Assembly: GCF_006151785.1 (NCBI RefSeq)
Contig: NZ_VDDD01000002.1
Coordinates: 20,758 to 84,757 of the forward strand
DNA length: 64,000 nt
Direction: 5' to 3'
Source of the DNA: Paracoccus marcusii
Lineage (GTDB): Bacteria; Pseudomonadota; Alphaproteobacteria; Rhodobacterales; Rhodobacteraceae
Under the pieces are notes generated by a model that searched no databases, was not told the DNA's origin, and saw only the letters and a program-made list of their open reading frames with translations. Position numbers and translations under genes: made by a program. Shown one piece after another: positions 9,433 through 39,668 of the stretch (the stretch's first letter is position 1; the number at the start of each line of letters is the position of its first letter).

Positions 9433-9437
9433 GAAGG

Positions 9438-19373: not shown

Positions 19374-19404
19374 GGGGAGGCCAAACCTGCCGGTTGGCCT
19401 CCCC
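19374..19404. terminator. Strong hairpin, possible terminator or operator
   Basis: GGGGAGGCCAA (19374-19384) and TTGGCCTCCCC (19394-19404) are perfectly complementary across a 9-nt loop. No clear T-run follows on either strand, so Rho-independent termination is uncertain. It lies between the ATPase gene and the RuvC-like gene. Confidence 0.5.
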
Positions 19405-19498
19405 ATACGTAGTATGGGGGCTTGCCCACTCGTCTCATGTTTTGGCTGCAAGCCTCTGTTCCCGTTAATTTTTCATGGCTCAGAGGATGAGGCGGGTC

Positions 19499-19520
19499 GA
19501 TGAGAAAGGCCTTTCTCATC
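19499..19520. repeat. 22-bp perfect palindrome
   Basis: The sequence from 19499 to 19520 equals its own reverse complement over all 22 bases, with centre AAAGGCCTTT flanked by GATGAG and CTCATC. Further ATGAGGA/TCATCC copies lie on both sides (19487-19600). This is the form of a dimeric repressor site or an origin element. Confidence 0.6.
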
Positions 19521-19598
19521 CTCATCACCAACCCATTGATTTCATTGGGCCATGAGGACGGGATGAGAATGAGGAAGACCGCGCTCATGATGAGGAAG

Positions 19599-24830: not shown

Positions 24831-24844
24831 GGCCGGTCTCCCCC

Positions 24845-25474
24845 TTACTGCGCCCAGCTCGGCCGACCGGCGAACCCGGGGGCGGACGCAGGCTGGCTGG
24901 GCTGATGTGCGGGTGCCGCATGGGTGGTCTGCTGCGGGGCATGCCCGGCCAGACCGTGTCCGCCGAACTGCAGCGGCGCCGTCCCCATGACCTGCGCGTA
25001 ATCACGATGGTCAGGCGTGACCGCGCTGCGGATCTCGTTCTTGTCGTCGCCGCTGGCGTCGGTGCCGATGTCGATGCGGGCGATGAACTCGATCCCGTCG
25101 AGATCGGCGAAGCCGTTGATGCGCCGCGCCGCCTGCGCCTCGGCCGACATGTCCTTGTCGGAAATCCCGAGGGCCGAGTTCAGCATGCCGCGCACGAGGC
25201 TGCGGCCCATGTTCGCCCAGTCCGGCCCCTTGGGGCTGTAGAGCCCGATCAGGGTGAAGATCTTGCGCCGGGCGTACTGGCCCTCGGTCACCGTGAACTC
25301 GCCGTTCAGATAGACAGCACCCGTCGAGCCGCGCGTGGCATAGCCGCCGGTCCAGCCTTGCGAGTCGTCGTCGAAACCGCCCGGTCGGATGGTCAGGCGC
25401 ACTTTGGCCAGCGTGCCCTTGGGGATCAGGTTGGTGTTGCTCTGCGCGTCGTTGAAATCGTTCCAGGAACCCAT
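24845..25474 (-). CDS. Conserved phage protein, possible single-stranded DNA-binding protein
   Basis: A 209-residue protein starting MGSWNDFNDAQSNTNLIPKG. The N-terminal 130 residues are beta-rich ('AKVRLTIRPGGFDDDSQGWTGGYA', 'VYLNGEFTVTEGQYARRKIF'). They end in a Gln/Pro/Ala/His-rich disordered tail, as in ssDNA-binding proteins. It lies next to a Sak4-like ATPase, a pairing common in phage recombination modules. I recognise it as a frequent Rhodobacterales phage protein, but the ssDNA-binding role is inferred. Confidence 0.6.
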   Translation of the reverse strand: MGSWNDFNDAQSNTNLIPKGTLAKVRLTIRPGGFDDDSQGWTGGYATRGSTGAVYLNGEFTVTEGQYARRKIFTLIGLYSPKGPDWANMGRSLVRGMLNSALGISDKDMSAEAQAARRINGFADLDGIEFIARIDIGTDASGDDKNEIRSAVTPDHRDYAQVMGTAPLQFGGHGLAGHAPQQTTHAAPAHQPSQPASAPGFAGRPSWAQ

Positions 25475-25493
25475 GGGGAACCTCCTTTTCTGA

Positions 25494-26366
25494 TCAGGAT
25501 TGCGGTTGGGATTGGACGTCGGCCGCCGGATCGGCGGGTGGCGGGGTGTAGGTCAGGCGCTTGGGCGCTGGTGCGACGGGAGCGCGGATCTTCGTCATCA
25601 GGCGGCCGAGGTGAGGCTCCTCGACCTGATCCAGACGCCCTGAGCGGTCCTTGGCCGGAAAGCCCCAGGGGTTGATCGTCTGGCAGATGAAGGCGCGATA
25701 GGGATCGCCGTCGGCTTTCAGCTCCGCCATGGTGATCACCTCGTCGACGATCCCCGGCAGCTCCAACCCGGTCTTCGAGCCGTCGATCTGCGGCTGGAAC
25801 ACCTTGCGGTTGAAGTCGTCGAGCTTCTCGTCGAGGATCCCGACGAACCAGACGTTCTTCGCCCGCGTGTGCTGGAGATGCGTGAGCCAGCCGATCATTT
25901 CGCGGCCATGGAGGCCGTAGGCCCCGCGCACATCCGGCTTGCCGGTCTTCTCCGACAGCGCCTCGGGCTGGCCCTTGCACCAGCCGAAGCACAGCCGACC
26001 CGCCACGGTGATCGAGTCCACGAAGATCGTGTCGTAGCGGTCGAGTGCGGCCGGATCGCCGAAGCGGTCGCAGACTGCCTTGTAATGTGCTGGGCTGTAG
26101 GGCTGCTCGTCGCGCAGCGCAGGGTTGGGCCCGCCGATGAACACCGCGAAATCCCGGCATTCCGTCCAGGTTCGCGGCCGGATGCTGTCGCCCGCCCAGC
26201 CCTCGATGGCGAGATCGCCCGCCTCGAGATCCATGAACAGGGTCGTCGACGCGTTCAGGGTCCAGAGGAGCGAGGTCTTCCCGATGCCAGACTTGCCGAA
26301 GATGCAGCCCTTGATCCCACGCGGCTCCGCCAGCCGCTGGTCGGCGCTGATGATCGGGAGGCTCAT
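25494..26366 (-). CDS. Sak4-like phage recombination ATPase
   Basis: A 290-residue single-domain RecA-fold ATPase. Walker A is 'CIFGKSGIGKTSLLW', then 'LFMDLEAGDLAIEGW' and a Walker B-like 'YDTIFVDSITVAGR', with 'VWFVGILDEKLDD' later. Size and motifs fit the AAA_24/Sak4 family, which helps strand annealing in phages together with an ssDNA-binding protein (the next gene). ATG 26366 overlaps the stop of the gene upstream (ATGA). Confidence 0.75.
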   Translation of the reverse strand: MSLPIISADQRLAEPRGIKGCIFGKSGIGKTSLLWTLNASTTLFMDLEAGDLAIEGWAGDSIRPRTWTECRDFAVFIGGPNPALRDEQPYSPAHYKAVCDRFGDPAALDRYDTIFVDSITVAGRLCFGWCKGQPEALSEKTGKPDVRGAYGLHGREMIGWLTHLQHTRAKNVWFVGILDEKLDDFNRKVFQPQIDGSKTGLELPGIVDEVITMAELKADGDPYRAFICQTINPWGFPAKDRSGRLDQVEEPHLGRLMTKIRAPVAPAPKRLTYTPPPADPAADVQSQPQS

Positions 26367-26899
26367 TGATCGCCCCCCTGCGGGACGATCTCGATCTTCA
26401 GCGTGCCGGGCCGGACGGTGCGCGCGGACTCGAAACCGGCACGGATCGCATCGGGCCAGGCGGCGTATTTGCGCTCGGGCACCTTGAACGCGATGTCGAC
26501 ATACTGGCCGGGATCGTCCCCGGCGGCGCGGATGCGCTCGACCATGGCGGCGAGGCGATCCTGATCCCAATCGACCCGTTTCGGCAGGTCCGCGACCACG
26601 GTGAAATCGCCGTCGTCGAAGCGGATCGTGCCGGTGTCCTTGCCCGCCGCCTGCCGTTCCTCGGCGGCGCGGGTGGCGTAGCGGACCGTCAGCGCGCCAT
26701 CGAGGCGGGCCTTCGCGGCCTTGTCCCGCTTGATGCGCTCGTCGACGTCGCGCTGCAGGATGGCCAGCAGTTCGACGGGCAGCTGGGCGATGTCCTGCAA
26801 GCCGAGGCCCGGCAGGTCGTCGACGGTGGGGGTGTTCGCGGGGAACGGCATGTAAGGGTCTCCATGATCGGCAAAAAGGAATTGGAAGGCGGTCATCAC
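26363..26899 (-). CDS. Hypothetical phage protein
   Basis: A 178-residue, mostly helical protein ('LLAILQRDVDERIKRDKAAKARLDGAL', 'KRVDWDQDRLAAMVERIRAAG'). The start could be ATG 26899, which overlaps the gene upstream, or ATG 26851. It is coupled to the Sak4-like ATPase. The pattern resembles accessory proteins of phage recombination modules, but I do not recognise a family. Confidence 0.65.
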   Translation of the reverse strand: MMTAFQFLFADHGDPYMPFPANTPTVDDLPGLGLQDIAQLPVELLAILQRDVDERIKRDKAAKARLDGALTVRYATRAAEERQAAGKDTGTIRFDDGDFTVVADLPKRVDWDQDRLAAMVERIRAAGDDPGQYVDIAFKVPERKYAAWPDAIRAGFESARTVRPGTLKIEIVPQGGDQ

Positions 26900-27249
26900 G
26901 CGGCCTCCTGCTCGGCGAGCAGAAGCGCGGACAGCGACACGGCTGCGGCCTTCGGTTTGGGGCGGGCGACGGCGATGTAGGCGAACTGGTCGGGGCCCGT
27001 GCGCTCCTGCACCAGGTGCACGAGGCCCTGTTCGGCGGCCCAGAAGGCGCGCGACCCGAGCCGGGCCAATTCCGCGCGCTGTTGATCCGGGAGCCGGGCG
27101 AACATCGGGAAGATGTCGAGGACCAGAAAGCCGCGATGGTATTCCAGCCGGTCGCCCGGCACGGCCTGCGCCACCCAGGCGCAGAACTCGATCTCGGTAA
27201 GCGGTCGGCGGGCGCGGACCGTGATGAAGGGGGTGGTGCCCATGAACAT
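26896..27249 (-). CDS. Hypothetical phage protein
   Basis: A 117-residue protein, MFMGTTPFITVRARRPLTEI..., with 'CAWVAQAVPGDRLEYHRGFLVLD' and 'LVQERTGPDQFAYIAVARPK'. It is the second gene of the leftward early operon, after the sigma-like gene, and overlaps its downstream neighbour by 4 bp. No family recognised. Confidence 0.65.
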   Translation of the reverse strand: MFMGTTPFITVRARRPLTEIEFCAWVAQAVPGDRLEYHRGFLVLDIFPMFARLPDQQRAELARLGSRAFWAAEQGLVHLVQERTGPDQFAYIAVARPKPKAAAVSLSALLLAEQEAA

Positions 27250-27271
27250 GATCTCCTCCTTTCGCCTCTAC

Positions 27272-27865
27272 TCAGGCCGCCGCGAGATCGTCCCAGGCGG
27301 GACCGAGACCGTGGGCGGTGAGGACGTGGCGGAGATCGGCGAGGCGGCGGTAGAGCGCGGACCGGCTGCCGAACCCCTCGGCCGCGAGCGCGGTGACGGG
27401 GCGATGCGCCAGCGCCGCACAGAACCGGCGATCCTCGGCCGGCAGCCGCGCGAGGGCGGCCTGCAGGGCGAGGTGAAGTTCGGTGACGGCGGCAGCGCAG
27501 CAGGTCTGGCCGTGCCAGGCGGCAAGCCCGTCGTCCTCGGTCAGCGTGTCCCCGACCGGCTCGCGGGTTTCGGCCAGGGGCACTTCGAGCGAGAGGAGCG
27601 ACCCACCCTGCGCACGGCGCTGGCGGTGATGGCGCATCGCGATCCGCGAGGACTGGTTACGCAGCACGATGTTGGCGAAGGCGCCGATGCTGCCGCGCGA
27701 GGGATCGTAGGCGGGCAAGCGGCGCAGCAGATCGACCAGGAGGTCCTGGCCCAGATCCTCGCGCTCGCAGACCGGCAGGCACAGCTTGCGCCGCAGCCGC
27801 TGTGCCGCCGCATCGGCCGCGCGAATGATGATTTCAATGTCGGCGGGGTAGAGTTCGATCTGCAT
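27272..27865 (-). CDS. Phage sigma-70-like factor / sigma region 2-4 protein
   Basis: A 197-residue protein resembling a small sigma factor. 'CEREDLGQDLLVDLLRRLPAYDPSRGSIGAFANIVLRNQSSR' matches sigma region 2 (the 'F-x-x-Y-D-P-x-R-G-S' core), and the C-terminal 'LPAEDRRFCAALAHRPVTALAAEGFGSRSALYRRLADLR' is a region-4-like HTH. It heads the leftward early operon. It could redirect host RNA polymerase to phage promoters. The alternative is a non-sigma HTH regulator with the same fold. Confidence 0.7.
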   Translation of the reverse strand: MQIELYPADIEIIIRAADAAAQRLRRKLCLPVCEREDLGQDLLVDLLRRLPAYDPSRGSIGAFANIVLRNQSSRIAMRHHRQRRAQGGSLLSLEVPLAETREPVGDTLTEDDGLAAWHGQTCCAAAVTELHLALQAALARLPAEDRRFCAALAHRPVTALAAEGFGSRSALYRRLADLRHVLTAHGLGPAWDDLAAA

Positions 27866-28045
27866 CGCTGTGCGCCTCGGTCATCGTTTCTGATGAGCCC
27901 AAGATGCCGGATGCGGTCGGCGCGCAGGTGGGAACGGGGTGGGAATGAGGTGGGGGTTTGGTGGGCCTGGCCCTTTGCCCGAGGCGATGAGTTGGGCGCT
28001 TCACTCAACCCTTGTGCTTATTGTCGGGCGGGTTTTGCGTTCAGC

Positions 28046-29293
28046 CTACCCCGGGTGGTAATAAATGGCGTCGAGCATTGCAGCCCGACACTCCCAAAGC
28101 TGTCCATCGCGAGTTTCGGGCTTGTCGATGTTGTACCACTCCGATGCGCGGATCACTTCCACGACTCGGTCCCAGTAATTTTCGAGGTTAAGAGTCGACT
28201 TGGCGAAGCCCATCCCATTCGCCGCGGCCACAATATTGGGATTGGAGATGCATAGGAATACGTCGGGGCGTTTCATGGCAAGCAGGCGTGACGCCGTCGC
28301 GACGCCCCCAACCCTGCTCGAATTGGCAAACGCCTTGACGAAAAGGCGGGCAAATCGGTCGAAATGCTCTCTTGTGACCTCTCCCTTCTGTGGAATGCTG
28401 TCAACGGCGCGAGCTAAAAATCGGTCGTTTTCTGCAACGCGATTCTTGAAGTCTCCCGCCCCACGCATTGAACCGAACCAACCCCAATCTCTATCAAGCG
28501 ACTCGTCACCGGCCTTTTCTTGAACACCTATTGCACCTGCGATTGCTTTCCTTTGTGACGTTGTTAGGTCGTGGAACGAAGGCACGGCCGATAGCCAACC
28601 CTGCGCAGTTCGGAGCAGGTCGAGACTTTCATCAACGTCGTGGTGAGCGGAACCTCGCACGGCGCGGACATACTGATCCCAATCCATACCGACCAAGGGG
28701 GACGATAGGCTCTTCACGCTTGCAGGCGGCACCCCTGCCAGCGGATCGCGAGGCGGACCTGGCCGCCTTGCGGCGAGTTTGCATCCGAGACGGTATCGCG
28801 CCGCCAGTTCTTTTGTCACGCGCTCACCGATTGAGGCACTTCGCGCGGCGAAGGAAAGGGTGTCAGCGAGCACCTTGTCGCTGACGGAACCCTTAACAAG
28901 GACGCAGGCTTCATGGTTCTTGCCCAGCCCGCCGCGAGTGAAGTTAGCGCTCCCGATTACAGCAGCAGCCCGTTTCCCAGAACGGAACGCGTAGACCTTT
29001 GGGTGGAACGTCCCACCAGGAAATTTCGTGACGACGTAGCATCCGTCGACCCCGATGAAAGAGTCTACAAGGTCTGGATCGGTCTGAGCGAACGCGAGGC
29101 CGAATGTCACGGCTCTGATTTTTGCTGAATGGGATAGCACTTTTCGGGCGAGGGAGGTGGATGTGCCCCAAGCAACCGCCCAATGAAGCTCGTCATATTC
29201 GGCCAGAAGGCCCTGGATGGCACTCTCTACGTCGTTCCCCGTCAGAAATTCGATTTCCAATTCAATTATCCCCTCACGCGACTTGCAGGTCAT
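28046..29293 (-). CDS. PLD-superfamily nuclease (single HKD motif), possible defence effector
   Basis: A 415-residue protein from ATG 29293. The N-terminal 130 residues are a phospholipase-D fold with one HKD motif: H97-P-K99 in 'TFHPKVYAF' followed by 'IGSANFTRGGL' (S115, N117). One motif implies a dimeric active site, as in the restriction nuclease BfiI/NgoFVII group. The C-terminal 250 residues are helical and not recognised. Base composition is visibly less GC-rich than neighbouring phage genes, suggesting separate acquisition. It has no methyltransferase partner of its own. Role as an anti-phage nuclease is inference. Confidence 0.72.
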   Translation of the reverse strand: MTCKSREGIIELEIEFLTGNDVESAIQGLLAEYDELHWAVAWGTSTSLARKVLSHSAKIRAVTFGLAFAQTDPDLVDSFIGVDGCYVVTKFPGGTFHPKVYAFRSGKRAAAVIGSANFTRGGLGKNHEACVLVKGSVSDKVLADTLSFAARSASIGERVTKELAARYRLGCKLAARRPGPPRDPLAGVPPASVKSLSSPLVGMDWDQYVRAVRGSAHHDVDESLDLLRTAQGWLSAVPSFHDLTTSQRKAIAGAIGVQEKAGDESLDRDWGWFGSMRGAGDFKNRVAENDRFLARAVDSIPQKGEVTREHFDRFARLFVKAFANSSRVGGVATASRLLAMKRPDVFLCISNPNIVAAANGMGFAKSTLNLENYWDRVVEVIRASEWYNIDKPETRDGQLWECRAAMLDAIYYHPG

Positions 29294-29364
29294 CAGTTGA
29301 TCGAAGCATAGCAGGCGCGGGTCAGCCCACAACTCGTGGTGAGGGGAGAGAGACCGAAGCGCCC

Positions 29365-30318
29365 CTAGCAGCCGTCGACCAAAATCTCGGTCGCAGGGAC
29401 GCCAAGCCGATAGCCACGGTTGCGGACCGTCTCGATCATGACCTTGCTCTCGGCATCGCTGAACCCCGCAGCCTTGAACGCGTCGCGCAGCTCGCGGATC
29501 AGATCCTTGGCCTCGCGCGCAGTCGTGCCTTCGACATGGGATCCGGAGGCGACCTGGTCGCGCGACTGCGCCTTTTCCAGCAGACGCTCGAACACGGGGA
29601 AAATCTGACGCGACAGGATGACGGAGCGACCATCCCATTGAACCTCGGCCGTTGCCCTTCGCACGCGAAGCACGGGCGCCAGCGGGACCGGCGCCAGAGC
29701 CGCGACGTCGATTGTGCCGCCGAGGCCATTTGTGGCGGGCGTCAGCACCTCAAGGGTTTCGATGAGATGAAAGCCCGCATCCTGATGTCGCCGGGCAGTC
29801 TCCGCTGGCAACTGCGGCGCGAGGATCGTGACGTCCGAGCCCTGCGCCGCCTGGCGCAACGATGCGATGATGCCGTCGCTGGTCAGGGCTGCGGACTCCA
29901 GCACAAGAAACACTGCCCGACCCGATGGCGTATCGCCGAGCCGCCAGACCTTCTCTGCCGCCAGCTTCGGGGCCGCGCCAAATCCCGCAGCCGTGCCGAT
30001 CACGGATGCGAGTGCCGCAGCCCCGATGCGGAACTCGCGCAGATCGTCCTCGGTGAGATCGATGTCATGTCGGCGGTCGAGCGGGCACTCAGCACGATAT
30101 CCATCGCCCGCTTTCCGGATCGGCCGACAGGGGAGCCCGCATTCACAGGCATCGCAGATGTCCCAATCGGCGAGCGGCGCCTGTTCGACAAGGACACGTT
30201 TCGCCAGCAGCCGGTCGAAGACCGGACCGAAGAACGGCGCGGCAAGCTCGCCGGACAGGATCGCGTCGTCGCCAGCCTCACTCAGCCGCGTCAACAACCT
30301 CAAAATCGTCTCGGTCAT
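29365..30318 (-). CDS. Unrecognised protein with cysteine cluster and C-terminal winged helix
   Basis: A 317-residue protein. Residues 50-75 hold a cysteine group 'DWDICDACECGLPCRPI' plus a later Cys, likely a zinc site. The middle (100-200) has an alpha/beta pattern. Residues 225-310 look like an OmpR-type winged helix: 'EVQWDGRSVILSRQIFPVFERLL' and ending 'VMIETVRNRGYRLG'. It overlaps the end of the gene upstream by 41 bp, so the pair is probably co-translated. I do not recognise the family; a DNA-binding sensor is a reasonable reading. Confidence 0.6.
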   Translation of the reverse strand: MTETILRLLTRLSEAGDDAILSGELAAPFFGPVFDRLLAKRVLVEQAPLADWDICDACECGLPCRPIRKAGDGYRAECPLDRRHDIDLTEDDLREFRIGAAALASVIGTAAGFGAAPKLAAEKVWRLGDTPSGRAVFLVLESAALTSDGIIASLRQAAQGSDVTILAPQLPAETARRHQDAGFHLIETLEVLTPATNGLGGTIDVAALAPVPLAPVLRVRRATAEVQWDGRSVILSRQIFPVFERLLEKAQSRDQVASGSHVEGTTAREAKDLIRELRDAFKAAGFSDAESKVMIETVRNRGYRLGVPATEILVDGC

Positions 30319-31519
30319 TCATCAGCCCGTTCCGTTCGATCAGCTTCATCACCCGCGCCTCATGCTGGGTGCGGCGGAACTGCACGACGCCCGGTGGCCG
30401 CAGCTTGACCGTGACCTGCGGCTGGCGTTTGCCGTCGCCCTTGAACAGGATCCGGAACACGAGCTCGCCCAGCCGCCAAGCACCGCCGAACGAGACCGGC
30501 GTGGTGCCGAAATGCTGGAGCGCGTCACCGCCGAGATCTCGCGAGCGCAGCGTGCGCACCACGCGCGGATACCCCTTCTTGCCGGGCGCCATCAGATCCG
30601 CCGCCGCCTCGATGATCAGCACCTTGTCGATCAGCGGATCGTAGGCGGCATCGAAGGCGAAGCTCGGTCCGGCCAGTTCGACCGGGCGCAGGGTATAGAG
30701 GTCCTGCGCATCGTCGCCGTCGAAGAAGCCGGGTCTGTCGAGGATGATCGAGGCGAAGAGTTCCGCGATCTCGGGCTGATGCGCCTTCCGGATGCGGGCC
30801 AGCCGCAACATGCCGGTGTTTTCGGAGTACCGCAGCACCGCGTGGGAAATCTGGCGCACGCTGATGACCCGTTCGACCTGGCCTTCGACGACCGGCATGG
30901 TCGAGACCATGGAACCGTGGCTGACCACGAGGTTGATCTCGTCATCGTCGTCGTAGTCACCCACCCGGCAGTAGTCCCCGAGAAACGCATCACGGAAGAG
31001 CGCGGCGACGGCCGTCCGGAACGCCTCGACCTTCTCCTCTGTCAGGTCGATCGCGACGCCACGTTCCCGCCCGGCAAATTCATGCAGGCGGTCGGCGGTG
31101 AGCATCGCCATGTGATCGGCGGCCGCGTCAAACAGATCGGGATGCTCCAGAAACACCCGGACGGCGATGTGTTTGGGATCATGCGCCTTGTTCGGCGAGT
31201 CCTCGTCGCCGGTCTTCATGTCGGGGAACAGATCGACGCCCTGACGGGCAGCCTGCGCCTGGATGATCTCGAGGCCGCGGGCATCGCCCAGTTCCGCGAT
31301 GCGGTGCAGATCGCCGCGCAGCCCCTCGGGATAGCTGTCCTCGGCGCCGGTCAGCAGTTTCTCCAGCGCCTCGCGGGCGACATCCTCCTCCTGGTCCAGC
31401 AGGTCGACGGAGAAACCCTTGTACTTGTCCTCGTGTCGCGCCAGCAGCGGCTTCATCAGGGCGAGATCGATGGTCTTGATGAACCGGGGGTTCACGAACT
31501 TCTTCAAATTGCCGGCCAC
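30278..31519 (-). CDS. Unrecognised 413-residue protein, first gene of a two-gene unit
   Basis: Starts at GTG 31519 behind a strong AGGAAAGGGG ribosome site; an ATG at 31540 is in frame but lies in that site. The sequence opens VAGNLKKFVNPRFIKTIDLA and later has 'LDQEEDVAREALEKLLTG', 'DDDDEINLVVSHGSMVSTMP' and an end 'EARVMKLIERNGLMNDRDDF'. No catalytic motif, signal or membrane segment is visible. With the winged-helix protein downstream it forms a unit placed between the PLD nuclease and the recombinase module. Confidence 0.6.
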   Translation of the reverse strand: MAGNLKKFVNPRFIKTIDLALMKPLLARHEDKYKGFSVDLLDQEEDVAREALEKLLTGAEDSYPEGLRGDLHRIAELGDARGLEIIQAQAARQGVDLFPDMKTGDEDSPNKAHDPKHIAVRVFLEHPDLFDAAADHMAMLTADRLHEFAGRERGVAIDLTEEKVEAFRTAVAALFRDAFLGDYCRVGDYDDDDEINLVVSHGSMVSTMPVVEGQVERVISVRQISHAVLRYSENTGMLRLARIRKAHQPEIAELFASIILDRPGFFDGDDAQDLYTLRPVELAGPSFAFDAAYDPLIDKVLIIEAAADLMAPGKKGYPRVVRTLRSRDLGGDALQHFGTTPVSFGGAWRLGELVFRILFKGDGKRQPQVTVKLRPPGVVQFRRTQHEARVMKLIERNGLMNDRDDFEVVDAAE

Positions 31520-31655
31520 GACGAATCCCCTTTCCTGCAAAACCAGTGTTCTTGCTACGTTCTTTCTGGCGATTCCTCAACCTGCGCGGGATCGCTGGGA
31601 CAGTTTCCGACAGCGACGAGTAGAGGCCGGAGGAGACGACTGCTCCGAGGCCCGC

Positions 31656-31859
31656 ATGAAACGCCCCAATCCGCTACCTCCCGACCAGATGACCGCCGCC
31701 GAACGCCGCACCGAGCTGTGCGGCCTGCTGGCGCTCGGGCTGGTTCGGTTGCGGATGCGGGATGGGGGCGAAGTATCTGACGATACTGGAGGACGTTGCC
31801 TACACTATCCGCCCGACCAATGCCGTCATGCAACTCCAACTCGCCGGAGAAATGCATGA
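31656..31859 (+). CDS. Small protein upstream of DUF2924 (recombinase module)
   Basis: A 67-residue protein, MKRPNPLPPDQMTAAERRTE..., ending RHATPTRRRNA. Its stop overlaps the DUF2924 start (ATGA). From memory, small proteins beginning 'NPIPxxxMTxAER' regularly precede DUF2924 and recombinase genes in alphaproteobacteria, which supports it as real. Function unknown. Confidence 0.6.
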   Translation: MKRPNPLPPDQMTAAERRTELCGLLALGLVRLRMRDGGEVSDDTGGRCLHYPPDQCRHATPTRRRNA

Positions 31860-32311
31860 ACAAGCCCGATCCCATCCCCGCGCGCCTCGCCGCGCTCAAG
31901 ACCACGCCGACGCCTGACCTGAAGCAACAGTGGCGCGACCTGTTCGACAGCGAGCCGCCGCCGTTCAATCGCCGCTACCTCGAATCCCGGCTGGCGTACC
32001 GCATCCAGGAACTTGCCTATGGCGGGCTGAAGCCGGAGACGATCCGGCGCCTTGAGCGGTTGGGCGAGGAACTGGACGGCGGCGACAGCAAGAAGCGCGG
32101 CATCCGCGCCGATCGCAAACGCCCGATCACCGGCACGCGGCTGCTGCGCGAATGGCAGGGCGTCGAGCAGATCGTCACCGTCACCGCCGATGGCTTCGAG
32201 TGGCAGGGGCGACCCTACAAGTCGCTGTCGGCTATTGCGCGCGCCATCACCGGCACCCGCTGGAACGGATGGACCTTCTTCGGCCTCAAGAACCACAGGG
32301 GGCGGACATGA
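31856..32311 (+). CDS. DUF2924 protein
   Basis: A 151-residue DUF2924 protein. Recognisable segments are 'LKQQWRDLFDSEPPPFNRRYLESRLAYRIQELA' and 'GTRLLREWQGVEQIVTVTADGFEWQGRPYKSLSAIARAITGTRWNGWTFFGL'. DUF2924 genes occur next to large serine recombinases and probably assist them, possibly as directionality or DNA-binding factors; this has not been shown. ATG 31856 was chosen for the 4-bp overlaps with genes on both sides. Confidence 0.88.
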   Translation: MNKPDPIPARLAALKTTPTPDLKQQWRDLFDSEPPPFNRRYLESRLAYRIQELAYGGLKPETIRRLERLGEELDGGDSKKRGIRADRKRPITGTRLLREWQGVEQIVTVTADGFEWQGRPYKSLSAIARAITGTRWNGWTFFGLKNHRGRT

Positions 32312-33633
32312 CCAAGCCCCCCGAAAAATCGAAGGTTGTCCGCAAGCTGCGGTGTGCCGTCTATACCCGGAAATCCTCCGAGGATGGGCTGGAGCAGGAG
32401 TTCAACAGCCTCCACGCCCAGCGTGAGGCCTGTGAGGCTTACATCGCCAGTCAGCGATCCGAAGGCTGGGTGCTGGTCCGCGACCAGTATGACGACGGCG
32501 GCATCTCGGGCGGCACGCTGGAGCGCCCCGGACTGAAGCGGCTGCTGGAGGACATCGAGGACGGGCTGGTCGATGTGGTCGTGGTCTACAAGATCGACCG
32601 CCTCAGCCGCTCGCTGGCGGATTTCGCCAAGCTGGTGGAGGTGTTCGACCGGAACGGCGTAACCTTCGTGTCGGTCACGCAAAGCTTCAACACGACCACC
32701 TCGATGGGGCGGCTGACGCTGAACATCCTGCTGTCGTTCGCCCAGTTCGAGCGCGAAGTGACGGCTGAACGCATCCGCGACAAGGTCGCGGCCTCTCGGC
32801 GCAAGGGCATGTGGATGGGCGGCGTGCCGCCCTTCGGCTACCGCGTCGAGAACCGGAAGCTGATGGTCGACGAGGAAAGCGCCACGCATGTGCGCTGGAT
32901 CTTCGCTCGCTTCCTCGAGATCGGGTCCTGCACTGAACTGGCGCGTGACGTCGGCGCGCGCGGCCTCCGGACGCCGCGCGGCAACCGGATCGACAAGAAA
33001 TACATCTACCGGATGCTCAGCAACCGCGCCTACATCGGCGAGGCGGTCCACAAGGGCGACAGCTACCCCGGCGAGCACGACGCGATCATCGACCGCGAGA
33101 TGTGGGACCGTGTCCATGCGATCCTGCAGGAGAGCCCGCGCAAGCGTGCCGCGCGCACCCGTGCCGACACGCCCGCGCTGCTGAAGGGGCTGCTGTTCGG
33201 CCCCGATGGCGCGGCGTTCTCGCCGACGCATACGCGCAAGGGCGACAGGCTCTACCGCTACTACGTCAGCCAGACAGTGCTGAAGCATGGTGCCGGGTCA
33301 TGCCCGGTGGGCCGCGTGCCCGCGGGCGAGATCGAGGCCGCCGTCATCGATCAACTCCGCGCCGTGTTCCGCCAGCCCGAAATCGTAGTGGGCACTTGGA
33401 AAGCGGCTCGGGCGCAGGACGAGGAGATCACCGAGGCCGACGCACGGGCAGCGCTTCAGCAGCTCGACCCGCTGTGGGACGAATTGTTCCCCGCCGAGCA
33501 GGCCCGCATCGTGGCGCTGCTGGTCGAGCGGGTGGACATCGGCACGGATGGGCTCAACGTCCGGCTCCGGATCGATGGCCTTAGCGACCTCGCGCGCGAA
33601 ATGCTGGCCAGCGGTATCGGAGAAGCTGCATGA
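32308..33633 (+). CDS. Large serine recombinase (site-specific integrase)
   Basis: A 441-residue serine recombinase. The resolvase domain has 'RCAVYTRKSSEDGLEQEFNSLHAQREAC' with the catalytic Ser in 'RKSSE', then 'DGGISGGTLERPGLKRLLEDI' and 'VYKIDRLSRS'. A recombinase domain follows ('VPPFGYRVENRKLMVDEESA'), then a zinc-ribbon-like part ('GSCPVGRVPAGEIEAAV') and a helical end. It is the likely integrase/excisionase of this prophage or of a nested element. It overlaps DUF2924 and the small HTH gene by 4 bp each. Confidence 0.92.
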   Translation: MTKPPEKSKVVRKLRCAVYTRKSSEDGLEQEFNSLHAQREACEAYIASQRSEGWVLVRDQYDDGGISGGTLERPGLKRLLEDIEDGLVDVVVVYKIDRLSRSLADFAKLVEVFDRNGVTFVSVTQSFNTTTSMGRLTLNILLSFAQFEREVTAERIRDKVAASRRKGMWMGGVPPFGYRVENRKLMVDEESATHVRWIFARFLEIGSCTELARDVGARGLRTPRGNRIDKKYIYRMLSNRAYIGEAVHKGDSYPGEHDAIIDREMWDRVHAILQESPRKRAARTRADTPALLKGLLFGPDGAAFSPTHTRKGDRLYRYYVSQTVLKHGAGSCPVGRVPAGEIEAAVIDQLRAVFRQPEIVVGTWKAARAQDEEITEADARAALQQLDPLWDELFPAEQARIVALLVERVDIGTDGLNVRLRIDGLSDLAREMLASGIGEAA

Positions 33634-34013
33634 CCCGCGCGACGTCGATCCCAGAGGCCGTGACGATCCACGTCCCGCTCCGCATCGTGAAGCGCGGCGG
33701 GCGGAAGGAGATGCAGCTGCCGGAAGGCGCCAGCCAGACGCGTCGGACGAATAGTGCGCTGGTCAAGGCGCTGGCGCGCGCGTTCCGTTGGAAGCGCATG
33801 CTGGAGTCGGGCGAGTTCATGTCAATCTCCGAACTGGCCGAGCGCGAGGGCATCGCCTTTACATACATGGCACGGGTCCTGCGCCTGACACTGCTCGCTC
33901 CCGACATCGTCGAGGCGATCGTGGATGGCACGCAGGGACAGGAAGTGACGTTGGCGTACGTTCTGGAACCACTCTCGATCATCTGGTCGGAACAGCGCGC
34001 TTACCTCCTGTAA
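33630..34013 (+). CDS. Small HTH protein of the recombinase module
   Basis: A 127-residue protein, MTRATSIPEAVTIHVPLRIV..., with an HTH-like 'MSISELAEREGIAFTYMARVLRLTLLAPDIVEAIVDG'. Proteins of this kind usually follow the DUF2924 and recombinase pair. The HTH suggests a regulator or recombination directionality factor. ATG 33630 overlaps the recombinase stop. Confidence 0.75.
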   Translation: MTRATSIPEAVTIHVPLRIVKRGGRKEMQLPEGASQTRRTNSALVKALARAFRWKRMLESGEFMSISELAEREGIAFTYMARVLRLTLLAPDIVEAIVDGTQGQEVTLAYVLEPLSIIWSEQRAYLL

Positions 34014-34172
34014 TCCCCCGCTTTCTGCTTGTGCGAGCGCAGCTAGCTCCCGTACGGTGAAGCTGAAAATGAGGTGGACGTTGGGATTGCACCGTCACAG
34101 GACGAGGCGCTATTGGGACGAATCTGGCTCCCTTGTATTTTGTTCAATTCAACCTTCTAAGGAGCGGTTTCC

Positions 34173-35537
34173 ATGATTCCAGCCGACAAGAAGAGGGCGG
34201 ACGCCAATCCAACCAAAGCATTCTTTGTTCGCATGATCACCCGAGATATCACGCTGGAAGACTGCATTTTCGACTTAGTAGACAACAGTATCGACGGGGC
34301 CTGGGAACTAGCAGGCGGTCATCCGCTAAGCCTAGATGATAAAACGGATCTCTCCGCCTACAAGATCAGCATCAAGATCGAGGCGGACCGCTTCGAAATC
34401 TCGGACAACTGCGGAGGCATCACACTGGATGACGCAGTCGACTATGCCTTTACTTTTGGGCGTAAGGACGATGCCGAGACCGAGAACTTTAGTATTGGAG
34501 TTTACGGCATTGGTATGAAGAGAGCGGTTTTCAAGCTCGGCACAGAGATCGACATCCGGAGCACGTACGAGGACAACGGCAATCTTGCATCCTTTCGGGT
34601 ACCAATAAACGTTGAGAATTGGCTAGCTTCGGGCGACGAAAATTGGGACTTCGACATTGAGGAAGCCGACAATTTGGACCAAAAAGGAGTTCGAATAACC
34701 GTCTCTGAGCTCACTGAAGCCGCAAAGAGGTCATTCGAAAGCCCCAGGTTCATCCGAAACCTGAGGCGGGCGATAGCTCGTGACTATGCGCTCCATTTGC
34801 ACCGCGGGCTCGTAATTGAGGTTCAAGGCACGCCGATCACTGGATGGACAATAGAGCTGCGGCAAGGTGGAGAGTTCAGCCCTATGCGGGCTCAGTTCGA
34901 AGAAGTGATGGACGGGGAGAAGGTTTTCGTCGAACTCTTGGCCGGCATGGCCGCTCCACCGCCGAACGATAGCGAGCCCAGCGATGACTTCGATGAAGGA
35001 CAAAATACCTCCGGGTGGTATGTGATCTGTAATGGACGGATCGTCTTGGCCGCTGACAAGACGACATTAACAGGTTGGGGAACCGAGGGCTGGCCTCAAT
35101 GGCACCCGCAGTATGCAGGGTTCATGGGGATAATAATATTTTCGTCTCGACGCGCTGACCTCCTGCCTTTGACGACGACAAAGCGCAGTGTCGACGAAAC
35201 GTCAGCCATCTACAGGCAGTTTCGTCCAAAGATGCGTGAGACGACAAAGGAATGGATTTCCTACACGAATACACGGAAGCAGATTAGGGAAGAGGCAGTT
35301 CAGCGAGAGGAAGCCGCCAAGGCCGTTCCCATATTCGAAGTCGCCATCCGGCAGGAGGTTGAGCTTCCAAAGATCGCACAGAAACCGAAGATCCCCGAAG
35401 CAAATGTGCTGTACACCGTCCCGAGGCCACGACTGAGGAGTCTCGCTTCGGCATTTGGCAATATCAACATGGCCTACAAAGATGTTGGCTTGCGTTCGTT
35501 CGAGTATGCCTTCAACGATCTTGTGGGCGACGAGTGA
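34173..35537 (+). CDS. GHKL ATPase (HSP90/MutL/MORC-like), defence-associated
   Basis: A 454-residue protein with an N-terminal GHKL fold. The ATP-binding motifs are 'CIFDLVDNSIDGAWE' (residues 31-45), 'EISDNCGGITLDDA' and 'IGVYGIGMKRAVFK'. At the position of the usual catalytic Glu of motif I there is Asp34. A second alpha/beta half and a long charged helix near residue 370 ('TRKQIREEAVQREEAAKA') complete it, as in MORC-like ATPases. Prokaryotic MORC/MutL relatives are known to occur with restriction-modification genes (Iyer and colleagues). Ribosome site AAGGAG precedes ATG 34173. Its stop overlaps the next start. GC is lower than the host's. Confidence 0.82.
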   Translation: MIPADKKRADANPTKAFFVRMITRDITLEDCIFDLVDNSIDGAWELAGGHPLSLDDKTDLSAYKISIKIEADRFEISDNCGGITLDDAVDYAFTFGRKDDAETENFSIGVYGIGMKRAVFKLGTEIDIRSTYEDNGNLASFRVPINVENWLASGDENWDFDIEEADNLDQKGVRITVSELTEAAKRSFESPRFIRNLRRAIARDYALHLHRGLVIEVQGTPITGWTIELRQGGEFSPMRAQFEEVMDGEKVFVELLAGMAAPPPNDSEPSDDFDEGQNTSGWYVICNGRIVLAADKTTLTGWGTEGWPQWHPQYAGFMGIIIFSSRRADLLPLTTTKRSVDETSAIYRQFRPKMRETTKEWISYTNTRKQIREEAVQREEAAKAVPIFEVAIRQEVELPKIAQKPKIPEANVLYTVPRPRLRSLASAFGNINMAYKDVGLRSFEYAFNDLVGDE

Positions 35538-36487
35538 TGGCTTCTTTCGATTCAATCAACTATAGCATTCGACCAAGCAAAAGCGTTCAAAGAGGAATAG
35601 TCTTCGAGGGGTTGCGTCGGATTGCAAACAAAATTGACCTCGATAACGCCGTATATATCGGCTTCGGTTCAATTTGGTTCACTGACTTTGTTCAGGCGCA
35701 CAAAATCCTACATATCGATGACATGGTGTCGATCGAAGCAAATGATATTGGGTTTCGTCGCGCGACGTTTAACAAGGAATATCGAACGATCTCTGTTATG
35801 GAGGGGCGTGCAAGTGCTCGGCTTCCCGATGTGCTAGCAATCGATGGATACAATGCTCGTCCTTGGGTCGTCTGGCTAGATTACGACTGCGCACTAAACG
35901 AGGAGATCGTCGAGGACATGCAATGGGTGCTCGCGAATGCTCCGCCAAGCAGCGTAGTCTTGTTCACCTTCAGTGCCAATGCGACCCAAACCGCGTATGG
36001 CAAGCCGCGAAACAGGCCAGATCGCGTAAGAGCGCTTCTGGGCGATGTTGTTCCCGATGAGCTTTCCAAAGATGCCTGCGAGAAGGAGACGCTGCCTACT
36101 ACGCTTGCAGGCTTGGTATCGGATTTCTTGAAGTCCGAGGCCGCCGATGCGGCGCGACCTGGTGGCTTCATAGATGCCTTTAGGCTGCCTTATCTCGACA
36201 GCGTTGCAATGGTTACAGTCGGCGGAATACTTCCGGCAAGGGAGGATACTGCTAGTGTTCGGGCAATGGTAGCGGACGCGTCCTGGGGTGGCATTGTTGA
36301 CGAAATCATTGAAGCTCCTCCGATGACCCTTCGCGAAATTGCTACGCTGCAAGCGGAACTACCGGCGGTGGCGGAGTTGACGCGCGCGCGTATCCAAGAA
36401 CTCGGATTCGACTTACACGAGCGGCAAATCAGATCCTTTCAAAATTACTACAAGTATCTGCCGAGTTTCGCGGAGATCGTTGCCTAG
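35537..36487 (+). CDS. Protein of unknown function coupled to the GHKL ATPase, possible degenerate Rossmann methyltransferase
   Basis: A 316-residue protein whose ATG overlaps the ATPase stop (TGATG). The first 140 residues follow a Rossmann-like pattern: 'AVYIGFGSIWFTDFVQ', 'MVSIEANDIGFRRAT', 'VVWLDYDCALNEE' and 'SSVVLFTFSANAT'. The glycine loop lacks the usual GxGxG, so it may be a diverged methyltransferase or a binding fold. The C-terminus is helical with 'QIRSFQNYYKYLPSF'. Low GC. It is the least understood member of the cassette. Confidence 0.75.
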   Translation: MASFDSINYSIRPSKSVQRGIVFEGLRRIANKIDLDNAVYIGFGSIWFTDFVQAHKILHIDDMVSIEANDIGFRRATFNKEYRTISVMEGRASARLPDVLAIDGYNARPWVVWLDYDCALNEEIVEDMQWVLANAPPSSVVLFTFSANATQTAYGKPRNRPDRVRALLGDVVPDELSKDACEKETLPTTLAGLVSDFLKSEAADAARPGGFIDAFRLPYLDSVAMVTVGGILPAREDTASVRAMVADASWGGIVDEIIEAPPMTLREIATLQAELPAVAELTRARIQELGFDLHERQIRSFQNYYKYLPSFAEIVA

Positions 36488-36559
36488 GCTCGATGGGATG
36501 GCGTCGACCCAGAACAGTAGCAGCGGTCAGTTCCTCTCGAACCCATAGAGAAGACATTC

Positions 36560-36967
36560 ATGGCCGACCACGTGACGCCAGAACGCCGCTCGTACATAAT
36601 GTCGAAGGTCGGCCAGAAGGACACAAAGCCTGAACTCGCCCTGCGCCGGGCCCTGCACCGGCTCGGATACCGGTTCAGGCTTCATCGTCGCGATCTGCCG
36701 GGCAGCCCCGACATCGTGTTCCCGTCGCGGAAGAAGGTCGTGTTCGTGCACGGCTGCTTCTGGCATGGCCACGGCTGCAGGTGGGGCCGACTGCCGAAGT
36801 CCAGGCCGGAGTACTGGAAGCCGAAGATTGAAACAAACAGGGAACGTGATACGAGAGCCTTGACCGAGCTGAGGGAAGCTGGCTGGGAGCCGCTCATTGT
36901 CTGGCAATGCGAACTGAGGGACCTCGAAGAAGCCGTCGGCCGCGTCGAGGCCTTCCTGAGAGGCTAG
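36560..36967 (+). CDS. vsr: Very short patch repair endonuclease Vsr
   Basis: A 135-residue Vsr. The N-terminus 'RSYIMSKVGQKDTKPELALRRALHRLGYRFR' is family-typical. The active site is 'GSPDIVFPSRKKVVFVHGCFWHGHGC', with metal-binding D51 and nearby H64 and H69. Vsr nicks T:G mismatches produced when 5-methylcytosine deaminates and so limits C-to-T mutation at methylated sites. It lies 60 bp upstream of the C5 methyltransferase it would serve. Confidence 0.93.
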   Translation: MADHVTPERRSYIMSKVGQKDTKPELALRRALHRLGYRFRLHRRDLPGSPDIVFPSRKKVVFVHGCFWHGHGCRWGRLPKSRPEYWKPKIETNRERDTRALTELREAGWEPLIVWQCELRDLEEAVGRVEAFLRG

Positions 36968-37027
36968 GTTTCGCTGGTCAATCCGGCACCACACCGATAT
37001 GTTGAGTGAAAACGACAGGAGCAAGGC

Positions 37028-38341
37028 ATGGCAAGACCGATAGGAGTCGACCTGTTCGCAGGGGCCGGGGGCATGAGCCTCGGCTTTGAGCAAGCCGGCT
37101 TCGATGTGGTCGCGGCCGTCGAACTCGACCCTGTGCACGCTGCGGTGCACAAGTACAACTTCCCGCGGTGCGCCGTTCTCCCACGATCTGTCACGGACGT
37201 CTCAGGCGACGATATCAGGGCGGCAGCCGGGATCGGCAACCGTCGTGTGGATGTCGTGTTCGGTGGCGCTCCGTGCCAAGGCTTCTCGCTGATTGGCCAG
37301 CGGGCCTTGGACGATCCCAGGAACGGACTCGTCAAGGATTTTGTGCGCATCGTCAGAGAACTGGATGCCGCCTATTTCGTCTTCGAGAACGTGAAGGGGC
37401 TAACGGTCGGAAAGCACCGGAAATTCCTGTTCGAACTGATCGAAGAGTTCGAGGCTGCCGGTTACGAGGTGCAGAAGGATTGGCGTGTGCTGAATGCGGC
37501 CGACTATGGCGTGCCGCAGGATCGCCAGAGGTTGATCCTTATGGGCGCCAAGAGAGGCGAAGAGGTGCCGACCTACCCGACGACGATTGCTGAGAGACCG
37601 ACGTGCCAAGCCGCGCTCGCCGATTTGCCCGACGCCGAATTCTTCGAGGAGCTTAGATCGTCGGATTCCGTAGAGACGTCTGCCTTCGGGAATCCGAGCA
37701 AATACGCCGAGCCGCTGCGAGGGATTGGAAACGATGCTTGGGCCTTCGGGCACCCTAGAAAATGGGATCCGAGCCTGTTCACTTCGAGCGCCCGCACCGA
37801 GCATACCGAGATCTCGCGGCGCCGTTTTCGAGAAACCGATCAGGGACGGGTCGAGCCGATTTCCCGTTTCTTCAAGCTCCCGGCGGACGGCGTGTCCAAT
37901 ACTCTCCGAGCTGGGACCGACTCGGCACGAGGCGCGTTCACCAGTCCGAGACCGATCCACTTTGCCTACGCGCGCTGCGTAACAGTCCGCGAGATGGCGC
38001 GTCTCCACGGCTTCCCCGACTGGTTTCGTTTCAATGCCACCAAGTGGCATGGGGCCCGCCAGATCGGTAACGCCGTGCCGCCGCCACTTGCACGCGCCGT
38101 CGCGGCAGCCGTCATGCGAGCCCTAGGCGTCGAACCCACTCGCCCGACAGAGGCAATCGCCCTCGGCGACGAGCGGCTCCTGACCATGGGCAACACCGAG
38201 GCGGCTGCGCACTTCCAGGTCGAGAATCCAATAGGTCGACGCGACAAGAAGAGTGGCGCAAAGAAGCGAAAGCAGGAAGAAATCGAGGCCTCATATGCCT
38301 TTAACGGGCGGCCTGAGTTCGTAGATGGCGTCGCTGGCTAG
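37028..38341 (+). CDS. DNA (cytosine-5) methyltransferase of a restriction-modification system
   Basis: A 437-residue C5-cytosine methyltransferase. Motif I 'VDLFAGAGGMSLGFEQAG', motif IV 'GGAPCQGFSLIGQR' with catalytic Cys, motif VI 'FENVKGL', motif VIII 'QDRQRLILMG', motif IX 'TVREMARLHGFPD' and motif X 'QIGNAVPPPLARAV' are all present. Its end is charged and overlaps the convergent restriction-enzyme candidate by 51 bp. Target sequence cannot be read from the protein. Confidence 0.92.
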   Translation: MARPIGVDLFAGAGGMSLGFEQAGFDVVAAVELDPVHAAVHKYNFPRCAVLPRSVTDVSGDDIRAAAGIGNRRVDVVFGGAPCQGFSLIGQRALDDPRNGLVKDFVRIVRELDAAYFVFENVKGLTVGKHRKFLFELIEEFEAAGYEVQKDWRVLNAADYGVPQDRQRLILMGAKRGEEVPTYPTTIAERPTCQAALADLPDAEFFEELRSSDSVETSAFGNPSKYAEPLRGIGNDAWAFGHPRKWDPSLFTSSARTEHTEISRRRFRETDQGRVEPISRFFKLPADGVSNTLRAGTDSARGAFTSPRPIHFAYARCVTVREMARLHGFPDWFRFNATKWHGARQIGNAVPPPLARAVAAAVMRALGVEPTRPTEAIALGDERLLTMGNTEAAAHFQVENPIGRRDKKSGAKKRKQEEIEASYAFNGRPEFVDGVAG

Positions 38342-39193
38342 CGTCAGCTCGTCGAGCGCCTGTGCGTCGGCTCTCCTGACGGCCTCGAATTCCGTAAGAT
38401 AGATCCCGACGCCTCTGACAGTTCGGAGGCCGATCGGGATTACCGTATCGACTTCCGCTTCCGCGAAAGCGGCCTGAACCTGGTTGATGATCTGGCTGGG
38501 AATCAATGGATCCTTGGCCTGCTTCGCTTCACAGGTGACCAGCACAGAATCAGGATTTTTGGGGTCGCCGGCCTTCCCGAGAAACAAAGCATCGATCTCA
38601 GTCGAGCGGAGCTTGATGCCCATCTGCAGGTGCGTCAGCTCGAGGAGCGGAAACGCTGGGGCGACTGCGAAGTGCGTCTCCACCACCCGGAGATTGATGG
38701 CCGTCTGGATAAGCCAGGTTTCATCGGATCGACCGAGCGACTTTGTGGCCAGCGGCAGGCTGATCGATTGCACGAGGAAACGCCGTGCATCCTCTCGAAC
38801 CTTGAAAGCGTCTGGAAAGGGCTCGGTATGACCAGGTCGGTAGGGGATGAACTCGAAGCACTCCCCGTCGCCCGTACGCTGGATGCCGGTGAACCGTCGT
38901 GCTGCAACCGAGGCAGGCCAGTTCTTCGAAGCGTTCGCTCCTCGGAGCAGATCCTTCATGAAATTGGCTGGGTTCCGGTCGCTCAGAGTCGAGCCGTATA
39001 GCTTGTTGCATTCGCGTATCGCCTGAGCCACGTCGTCGAGGCTCATGAGCCTCTTGTCGAGCGCGCCGTTCGTCGCGTCCCAGTGCTTTTCGAACAAGTG
39101 CTCGATCACCTGCGTCTTCTGCGATTTCGCCACTTTGTCCGATCCGGTATGCCGATGATTAGGCAATAGTATTTCGAACAAATGCCGAGGCAC
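38291..39193 (-). CDS. PD-(D/E)XK restriction endonuclease candidate
   Basis: A 300-residue protein convergent with the methyltransferase. The catalytic signature is E199-I-D201 ('STEIDALFLG') with E222-A-K224 ('VLVTCEAKQA'), a PD-(D/E)XK arrangement. N-terminal 'HLFEKHWDATNGALDKRLMSLDDVAQAI' is helical. The start is GTG, either at 39193 or at 39133 (VAKSQKTQ). Neighbourhood makes it the cognate nuclease of the C5 methyltransferase. No specific restriction family recognised. Confidence 0.75.
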   Translation of the reverse strand: MPRHLFEILLPNHRHTGSDKVAKSQKTQVIEHLFEKHWDATNGALDKRLMSLDDVAQAIRECNKLYGSTLSDRNPANFMKDLLRGANASKNWPASVAARRFTGIQRTGDGECFEFIPYRPGHTEPFPDAFKVREDARRFLVQSISLPLATKSLGRSDETWLIQTAINLRVVETHFAVAPAFPLLELTHLQMGIKLRSTEIDALFLGKAGDPKNPDSVLVTCEAKQAKDPLIPSQIINQVQAAFAEAEVDTVIPIGLRTVRGVGIYLTEFEAVRRADAQALDELTLASDAIYELRPPVKGI

Positions 39194-39578
39194 AAGAGCG
39201 CGTCACGTCATCGAACGAGCAGTTTGAGGCTGGAGACTCGCAGGCGGGTGAACCGCCGACCGGAGGCGGAAGATAGAGTTCGTAGATCGGTCACCAGACC
39301 ACCGTCCGCGGATAGGTTCGATTTCTGTTCCGTCTCGCGGAAGCGACCGACTTCGAAGTGTTCAGGCAGGGAAAGCATTTTCCGTAAGGACTTTAAATGC
39401 TTACAGGCTCTACACCAAAACCGCGCAGTCGAGAGGTCCGGAGAATATCGGCCCTGAGAGACCGCTTCTGGGCCAACTGGTAGCAGGGGCAGTGCTTAGC
39501 CCCATCCGCATAACCATTCAGATAAAACGAGAAAATCCGGCCGCGGCCGGATCGGGAGAACGCTTTCGCGGGGGCAAG
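39194..39578. other. 385-bp junction between defence island and tRNA-Ser
   Basis: No convincing gene. The stretch separates the restriction-enzyme candidate from the 3' end of tRNA-Ser. I looked for a copy of the tRNA 3' end elsewhere in the window as a second attachment site and saw none. Frames crossing it are artefacts of the tRNA sequence. Confidence 0.5.
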
Positions 39579-39668
39579 TGGCGGAGCGAGAGGGATTCGA
39601 ACCCTCGAGACGGTCTCCCGCCTACACACTTTCCAGGCGTGCGCCTTCGACCACTCGGCCATCGCTCC
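39579..39668 (-). tRNA. tRNA-Ser (anticodon GGA)
   Basis: On the minus strand the 5' half is GGAGCGATGGCCGAGTGG and the 3' acceptor strand is TCGCTCC, followed by a G discriminator and an encoded CCA (39581-39579). The anticodon loop CTGGAAA carries GGA, reading UCC/UCU serine codons. A long variable arm and GGTTCGAATCC T-arm confirm a class II tRNA-Ser. The 3' end faces the defence island. Confidence 0.95.

Follow-up and report, generated by a model that had tools for sequence, protein, structure and literature searches.

GHKL ATPases encoded beside cytosine methyltransferases and the very-short-patch repair endonuclease Vsr have been described before (Iyer, Abhiman and Aravind 2008, PMC2292703). 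In the restriction-modification (R-M) operons of MORC and paraMORC proteins set out in that paper, a GHKL ATPase lies near cytosine methyltransferases, Vsr and nucleases of the restriction fold, and the operons are mobile and patchily distributed. HEF_HK and Response_reg_2 form a similar pair, a HATPase_c_3 protein and a second protein near a C5 methyltransferase, Vsr and HNH_2 or other nucleases (PMC8011034, 2021). Experimental evidence tying a GHKL ATPase to phage restriction was reported for VcSduA, a paraMORC3 or Shedu fusion of a GHKL ATPase and a nuclease that restricts phage, and that lost its protective effect when ATP hydrolysis or the nuclease was disrupted (PMC12137116, 2025). Here we analyzed a five-gene cassette in a 64,000-nucleotide stretch of Paracoccus marcusii (contig NZ_VDDD01000002.1, positions 20,758 to 84,757; hereafter the window), in which a GHKL ATPase and a partner of the family PF20553 precede Vsr, a C5 methyltransferase and a predicted nuclease. 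Gene content suggests, with a probability of about one half, that the ATPase-partner pair is a methylation-gated restriction module in its own right, more than a licence for one nuclease.

The first gene (34173-35537, plus strand) encodes a GHKL-type ATPase of 454 amino acids (HATPase_c_3; PF13589, E 3.2e-9), and the second (35537-36487, plus strand) encodes a 316-residue protein of PF20553 (Methyltransf_35, E 3.4e-93) with a predicted S-adenosylmethionine (SAM) methyltransferase fold resembling Trm1. The ATG of the partner overlaps the ATPase stop codon (TGATG), and we call these two genes module A. Module B consists of Vsr (36560-36967, plus strand; TIGR00632, E 4.8e-47, over the cut-off), the C5 cytosine DNA methyltransferase (37028-38341, plus strand; PF00145, E 2.5e-65; PADLOC MTase_II PDLC03326, E 3.5e-170) and a predicted restriction nuclease of 280 amino acids with a winged helix and a PD-(D/E)XK domain (38291-39133, minus strand). 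The nuclease and methyltransferase genes overlap tail to tail by 51 bp. The nuclease frame opens at 39193, and we set the gene start at 39133 because most relatives are about 280 amino acids long and begin at residue 21. All five open reading frames (ORFs) are intact in the window, and the gene identities given in the initial annotation held, through profile matches and open frames for the ATPase, Vsr and the methyltransferase and through motifs and weak fold matches for the nuclease. The partner, which had been taken for an unfamiliar protein, turned out to belong to a named Pfam family. The same five genes recur in Roseovarius aestuariivivens (L003) and in the viral contigs L107 and L108, suggesting that the arrangement is more than chance, although L107 is not an independent recurrence because its methyltransferase, ATPase and partner are 99% identical to those of the window.

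We next compared the cassette with the known systems. The partner of HEF_HK is response-regulator-like (PF19192; PMC8011034), whereas the partner here is PF20553, and a Pfam search found no match to PF19191 or PF19192 at E up to 1 in the window's ATPase or partner. The ATPase of VcSduA is fused to a required DUF4263 nuclease (PMC12137116), whereas ATPase and nuclease are separate genes in the window; in the 454-residue ATPase, HATPase_c_3 was the sole Pfam domain over its cut-off, with no fused nuclease. The adjoining C5 methyltransferase, Vsr and predicted PD-(D/E)XK nuclease are what a type II R-M system also has, and, as far as gene content goes, the methyltransferase and the overlapping PD-(D/E)XK-type gene qualify as one. 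The window differs from such a system by the additional pair, which is inherited largely independently of the C5 methyltransferase, Vsr and the nuclease. The cassette also differs from DISARM, since PADLOC recognized no DrmA, DrmB or DrmD among the ten proteins of the 28046-39193 region that were scanned. In the literature searched we found no paper on PF20553 or Methyltransf_35, on a putative O-methyltransferase paired with HATPase_c_3, or on an inovirus with a cytosine methyltransferase and cargo. What appears new relative to that literature is that the ATPase is co-inherited with a PF20553 partner, that module B is exchanged, that phages carry the trio with no nuclease recognized, and that the pair has once been inserted into DISARM.

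We then surveyed the neighbourhood of the pair. Fifty partner loci came from one scan of the species-genome collection; scans of relatives, class, order, plasmids, phages and viral contigs brought the total, once repeats were removed, to 65 distinct PF20553 loci, the window included. Left out of the counts were L013 (a near copy of L012), repeat views of the same loci, L060 and L061, which have no partner gene, and L117, which was found via its ATPase. The ATPase lay directly upstream of the partner in 62 of the 65 loci; among these, it was a contig-edge fragment in L010, was divided over two frames in L007 and gave a partial 80-bit match in L048. In two of the remaining three the contig starts at the partner (L050, L115), and in the third (L102) the partner is split and the ATPase abuts its first piece. 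The two pieces in L102, on plasmid psymA of S. meliloti strain KH46, are at 6029-6205 and 8953-9813, about 2.7 kb apart. A C5 methyltransferase was found within 8 kb (start to start) in 59/65 loci, compared with 48 of 115 class genomes having one anywhere, and Vsr was present on the fetched stretch in 40/65, so that the neighbourhood matches that of the MORC and paraMORC R-M operons. The partners diverge to below 30% identity and the hosts span several phyla. The link of the pair to R-M genes proposed in the initial annotation was thus supported, as the pair is not found mostly apart from Vsr and the methyltransferase. The co-occurrence expected of all five genes held in part: they recur together in the three loci mentioned above, and the pair is tied to the methyltransferase, but the five are not always together.

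The six loci without a C5 methyltransferase were of different kinds. In L029 the pair is accompanied by an enzyme of the MutH type and by a D12 adenine methyltransferase, L101 is a DISARM operon that includes an MmeI-type enzyme, and L048 has Vsr and a gene of an HNH cluster. In L049 a neighbour shows a weak PDC-S02 match and, by eye, a PD-(D/E)XK-like stretch; L028 and L039 lie on short contigs of 12.7 and 7.4 kb. The nucleases beside the pair also varied. The window-type family and the family of PADLOC REase_II PDLC03404 each occurred in 9/65 loci, with both present in L006 (Paracoccus sp. C2R09) and L102; HNH_2 endonucleases, two of which were checked by Pfam, belong to a cluster of seven neighbour genes, and HNH, HSDR_N and MutH-like nucleases were found singly or in a few loci. 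A nuclease other than Vsr, or a DISARM system, was recognized beside the pair in 25/65 loci. In the other 40, no nuclease except Vsr was recognized, and 139 of their 189 neighbour ORFs (110 to 700 amino acids, within 2.8 kb, longer ones left out) were scanned with PADLOC. Among the 25 listed of 93 matching families, none labelled as a type II restriction enzyme was hit by more than one of the scanned neighbours, although an isolated case could have escaped this listing; type III methyltransferases were matched by one neighbour. In L015 (6598-8340, HATPase_c_3 by Pfam), L042 (6209-8044) and L037 (6742-8493), the C5 methyltransferase and the pair are separated by a second GHKL-type protein of larger size.

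Next, we asked whether the genes of the cassette were inherited together. Pairwise distance matrices were compared over 53 loci with all three of ATPase, partner and methyltransferase at scores above set limits, and over 35 loci for Vsr. ATPase and partner distances correlated with r 0.965, whereas correlation with the methyltransferase was 0.22 for the ATPase and 0.24 for the partner. Vsr distances correlated with those of the methyltransferase (r 0.63) and much less with those of the ATPase (r 0.17). Each correlation had a permutation p of 0.001-0.002, with host relatedness not controlled. In line with these values, the methyltransferases of L043, L044 and L062 are 86-89% identical to that of the window, whereas their partners are just 27-29% identical. 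Because the ATPase and partner distances match closely, those of the methyltransferase do not and Vsr tracks the methyltransferase, the cassette, judged from these distances, is two modules: a co-inherited ATPase-partner pair and an exchangeable set of C5 methyltransferase, Vsr and nuclease. The fixed five-gene unit envisaged in the initial annotation therefore gave way to a co-inherited pair around which the methyltransferase, Vsr and nuclease are swapped.

No family of Pfam, PADLOC or NCBIfam matched the nuclease itself at E up to 1. Its TEID and TCEAK motifs are invariant across 32 sequences, and its structure model aligns weakly to PD-(D/E)XK nucleases. The same methyltransferase and nuclease neighbours occur in L003, L043, L044, L060-L062, L107 and L108; the set accompanies a distant version of the pair in L043, L044 and L062, and with Vsr it occurs without the pair, within the 18 kb fetched, in L060 and L061. 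The nuclease was found in 7 of 390 order genomes, and the pair is present in three of these (the window, G326, G435); two others lack it (G489, G499), and G485 and G180 gave partial matches near a contig end. The window also contains a second C5 cytosine methyltransferase (15105-16286, minus strand), for which the genome search matched 15705-16220.

Both proteins of the pair were then examined for conserved residues. The ATPase keeps the ATP-binding motifs of GHKL ATPases, with Asp replacing the first Glu, and its PF13589 match is over the cut-off. In an alignment of 63 rows (62 loci, the window entered twice; one or two gaps per column), N38, D78, G81, G82, G112 and K337 were identical in every gap-free row, and G109, G114 and K116 each had one deviating row. 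K337, likely the S5 lysine, was present in 62 of the 63 rows, the remaining row being a gap. Position 34 is Asp in every gap-free row, and we take it to occupy the place of the catalytic Glu of MutL, Hsp90 and MORC. The S5-domain motif of MORC proper, GhXhhpXXRhl (Iyer 2008, PMC2292703), was not found by eye in the alignment; the nearest stretch, GIIIFSSRRADLL, does not fit the motif and contains a non-conserved Arg. A protein search with the ATPase found at least 1510 relatives, and its profile matched 5 of 387 class genomes (G000, G128, G725, G754, G598). The first four also possess PF20553, while G598 gave a weak match (60 bits) with PF20553 absent from the surrounding 19 kb. In G750, the fifth PF20553 genome of the class set, the partner stands at the start of a 3.9-kb contig.

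The partner matched PF20553 over residues 1-314 with 312.8 bits, against a curated cut-off of 27. Its predicted structure is a Rossmann-type class I SAM methyltransferase fold, and G42, G44, E67 and D115, which resemble residues of a cofactor pocket, are conserved. The tRNA G26 methyltransferase Trm1 is a fold neighbour with 10-11% identity and a different gene context. Our leading guess from the Trm1-like fold is that RNA or DNA methylation would be the likeliest activity of the partner.

Mobile elements carry the ATPase, partner and C5 methyltransferase as a trio. In the Pseudomonas phage PfAC20, a Pf phage of 13.6 kb, the trio constitutes ORFs 1-3 (L100, 280-3711), and ORF9 is a second annotated cytosine methyltransferase. 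A cytosine methyltransferase, which could be either of the two, was listed as an incomplete defence system in the description of PfAC20 (PMC11878078). The trio is also found in six viral contigs (L110-L114, L117). It is accompanied by an inovirus Zot gene in L111-L113, suggesting that these are likely inoviruses, and L115, a contig that begins at the partner, has Zot, partner and methyltransferase; the ATPase was thus seen on the fetched stretch in four of five filamentous-phage loci (L100, L111-L113, not L115). L117 has the trio within a 33-kb viral contig. In L110, whose baseplate match is just under the family cut-off, and in L114 the trio adjoins P2-type baseplate genes. Such genes lie beside the pair cluster at 7285-8259 in L110, 6305-7432 in L114 and 12727-13758 in L016, which suggests that the cluster occupies a cargo spot of P2-like prophages. 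L110 also encodes a DnaJ-domain protein of 446 amino acids (766-2106, minus strand). The fetched stretches of PfAC20, L110-L115 and L117 had no match up to E 1 to the profiles of Vsr and of both nuclease families; the viral contigs L107-L109 do have Vsr.

A plasmid carries a further version. On pR24_2 of Microvirga terrae (L101), DrmD, an MmeI-type enzyme, the ATPase, the partner, DrmA, a DUF1998 protein and DrmC follow one another in this order, so that in one of the 65 loci a distant version of the pair lies inside a DISARM operon. There the pair occupies 7582-9996 between the MmeI-type and DrmA genes, Vsr is upstream, and the partner is 22% identical to that of the window.

Several phages carry the pair and a marking enzyme without a recognized cutting enzyme, suggesting that the pair likely helps in its own right to block unmarked foreign DNA. 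Because the methyltransferase is near-constant, no particular nuclease is, and the nuclease set is viable without the pair, we read the pair as a restriction arm that would be restrained on methylated DNA. A GHKL clamp is an established mode of DNA engagement by MutL and MORC proteins. We infer a role in defence along the following lines. The C5 methyltransferase, judged from its family, would mark the cell's own DNA, and Vsr, likewise, would mend the T:G mismatches left by 5-methylcytosine, while unmarked DNA would be cleaved by the PD-(D/E)XK protein in the manner of any type II enzyme. Like MutL and MORC, the GHKL ATPase, driven by ATP, would form a closed dimeric clamp on incoming DNA that lacks the mark and hold or activate the partner there, and the partner would modify a nucleic acid, thereby stopping the invader.

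A more specific form of this mechanism, which we put forward tentatively and consider less likely than not, is restriction without cutting. The ATPase would clamp DNA lacking the methyltransferase's mark and fire the Trm1-like partner to methylate phage or host RNA or DNA, shutting the infection down; the trio would be the whole system, with Vsr and nucleases optional, and the pair would be a plug-in for phages, plasmids and a DISARM operon. If this is true, R-M would include systems that restrict by an ATPase and a nucleic-acid methyltransferase instead of a nuclease. PF20553 would gain a function, the trio would be a small three-gene model of how MORC/MutL-type ATPases read methylation, and the cytosine methyltransferase of PfAC20, listed as an incomplete R-M system in its description (PMC11878078), could be re-read as part of a full three-gene set.

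Several points weigh against the pair being a restriction module in its own right. The Asp in place of the catalytic Glu may mean that ATP hydrolysis is slow or absent, and a Trm1-like fold by itself fixes no substrate for the partner. A phage methyltransferase can serve anti-restriction, so the nuclease-poor phage loci are no proof of restriction by the pair, and L110, L114 and L117 are, like L115, parts of longer contigs. The nuclease scan covered 139 of the 189 neighbour ORFs, unlinked or undescribed nucleases may exist, and the type III methyltransferase match shows that at least one of the 40 loci without a recognized nuclease has other R-M genes nearby. Finally, VcSduA needs its nuclease as well as its ATPase (PMC12137116), and the 25 loci with a nuclease or DISARM beside the pair also suit models in which the pair is a helper.

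In such a model, which is the strongest of the alternatives but which we hold to be doubtful, the GHKL ATPase would loop or remodel DNA to link recognition and cutting sites, and the partner would be a structural or regulatory subunit. Looping or remodelling was proposed for MORC and paraMORC proteins in R-M operons (PMC2292703), and this model draws further support from the double requirement in VcSduA and from the varied nucleases that adjoin the pair, from the window type and the PDLC03404 family to the few HNH, HSDR_N and MutH-like ones. It is not favoured by PfAC20 and the six viral contigs with the trio, where neither Vsr nor the nuclease profiles matched on the fetched stretches, or by the 40 loci in which, with 139 of 189 neighbour ORFs scanned, no nuclease besides Vsr was recognized. 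Licensing of nuclease cleavage, the task suggested for the ATPase in the initial annotation, is therefore not borne out as the general job of the pair.

It is rather unlikely that the partner acts on the nucleic acids of the cell itself, as a further enzyme that modifies DNA or RNA for self-marking or regulation while the ATPase remodels for it, so that any defence would come from the other module. The class I methyltransferase fold with its conserved pocket-like residues would suit this role, as would the company of the pair, a C5 methyltransferase in 59 loci and, in four of the six others, different R-M genes or nuclease genes. A self-marking enzyme, however, would need no DNA methyltransferase alongside, and the pair and the C5 methyltransferase are exchanged largely independently. 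We give considerably less credence to a MutL-like repair unit working with Vsr to guard 5-methylcytosine sites from mutation: the ATPase is of the MutL-type family and Vsr accompanies the pair in 40 loci, but the stretches fetched for the other 25 showed no Vsr, and its distances track the methyltransferase, not the ATPase. Least credible, and already disfavoured, is a plain type II R-M system sharing an island by chance with an unrelated pair, for although L060 and L061 have the set without the pair, a nearby C5 methyltransferase is far more frequent among the diverse partner loci than any C5 methyltransferase is among the class genomes.

The cassette lies on an island. Upstream of it is a recombinase module consisting of a DUF2924 gene (31868-32311, plus strand; PF11149, E 2.7e-52) and a large serine recombinase (32308-33633, plus strand; PF00239, E 9.8e-40, with PF07508 and PF13408), which likely mobilises the island. 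The recombinase frame is open from 32152, and we interpreted the in-frame ATG at 32308 as its start. The recombinase DNA is about 85% identical in L044, L060 and L061, all of which also have the same nuclease set. On its right side the island is bounded by the 3' end of a tRNA-Ser(GGA) gene (39579-39668, minus strand; ARAGORN): identity of the window with L060, L061 and L107 ends at 39586-39595, and the relatives G016 and G005 resume at 39578-39579. G016 keeps the left flank of the window (18824-21455, 94% identical) about 2.1 kb from its tRNA-Ser, and the intervening stretch of about 18 kb (21455-39578) is missing from it and replaced by something shorter. The recent acquisition proposed in the initial annotation is thus supported. 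The region at 34-36 kb has a GC content of 51-53%, compared with 64-73% over most of the remaining window.

Other genes were noted on this island and at its site. The viral contig L107 is 95% identical to the window over 29369-39586 and, otherwise collinear with it, has no match across 27965-29369. At 28046-29638 (minus strand) lies a gene of low GC content whose product has a PLD-type nuclease domain and gives weak matches of the DrmC-like kind, and the gap in L107 suggests that it may have been a separate arrival. The close relative G001 (L103, 1948-4023 and 17834-19901) has a related DUF2924/serine recombinase stretch, 77% identical, at a distance of about 14 kb from the same tRNA-Ser, which suggests that another island occupies this site. 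A DnaJ-domain protein of 705 amino acids is encoded beside Vsr on the same recombinase island in L060 (11090-13207, minus strand) and L044 (13686-15803, minus strand), where it sits in the place that the ATPase-partner pair has in the window.

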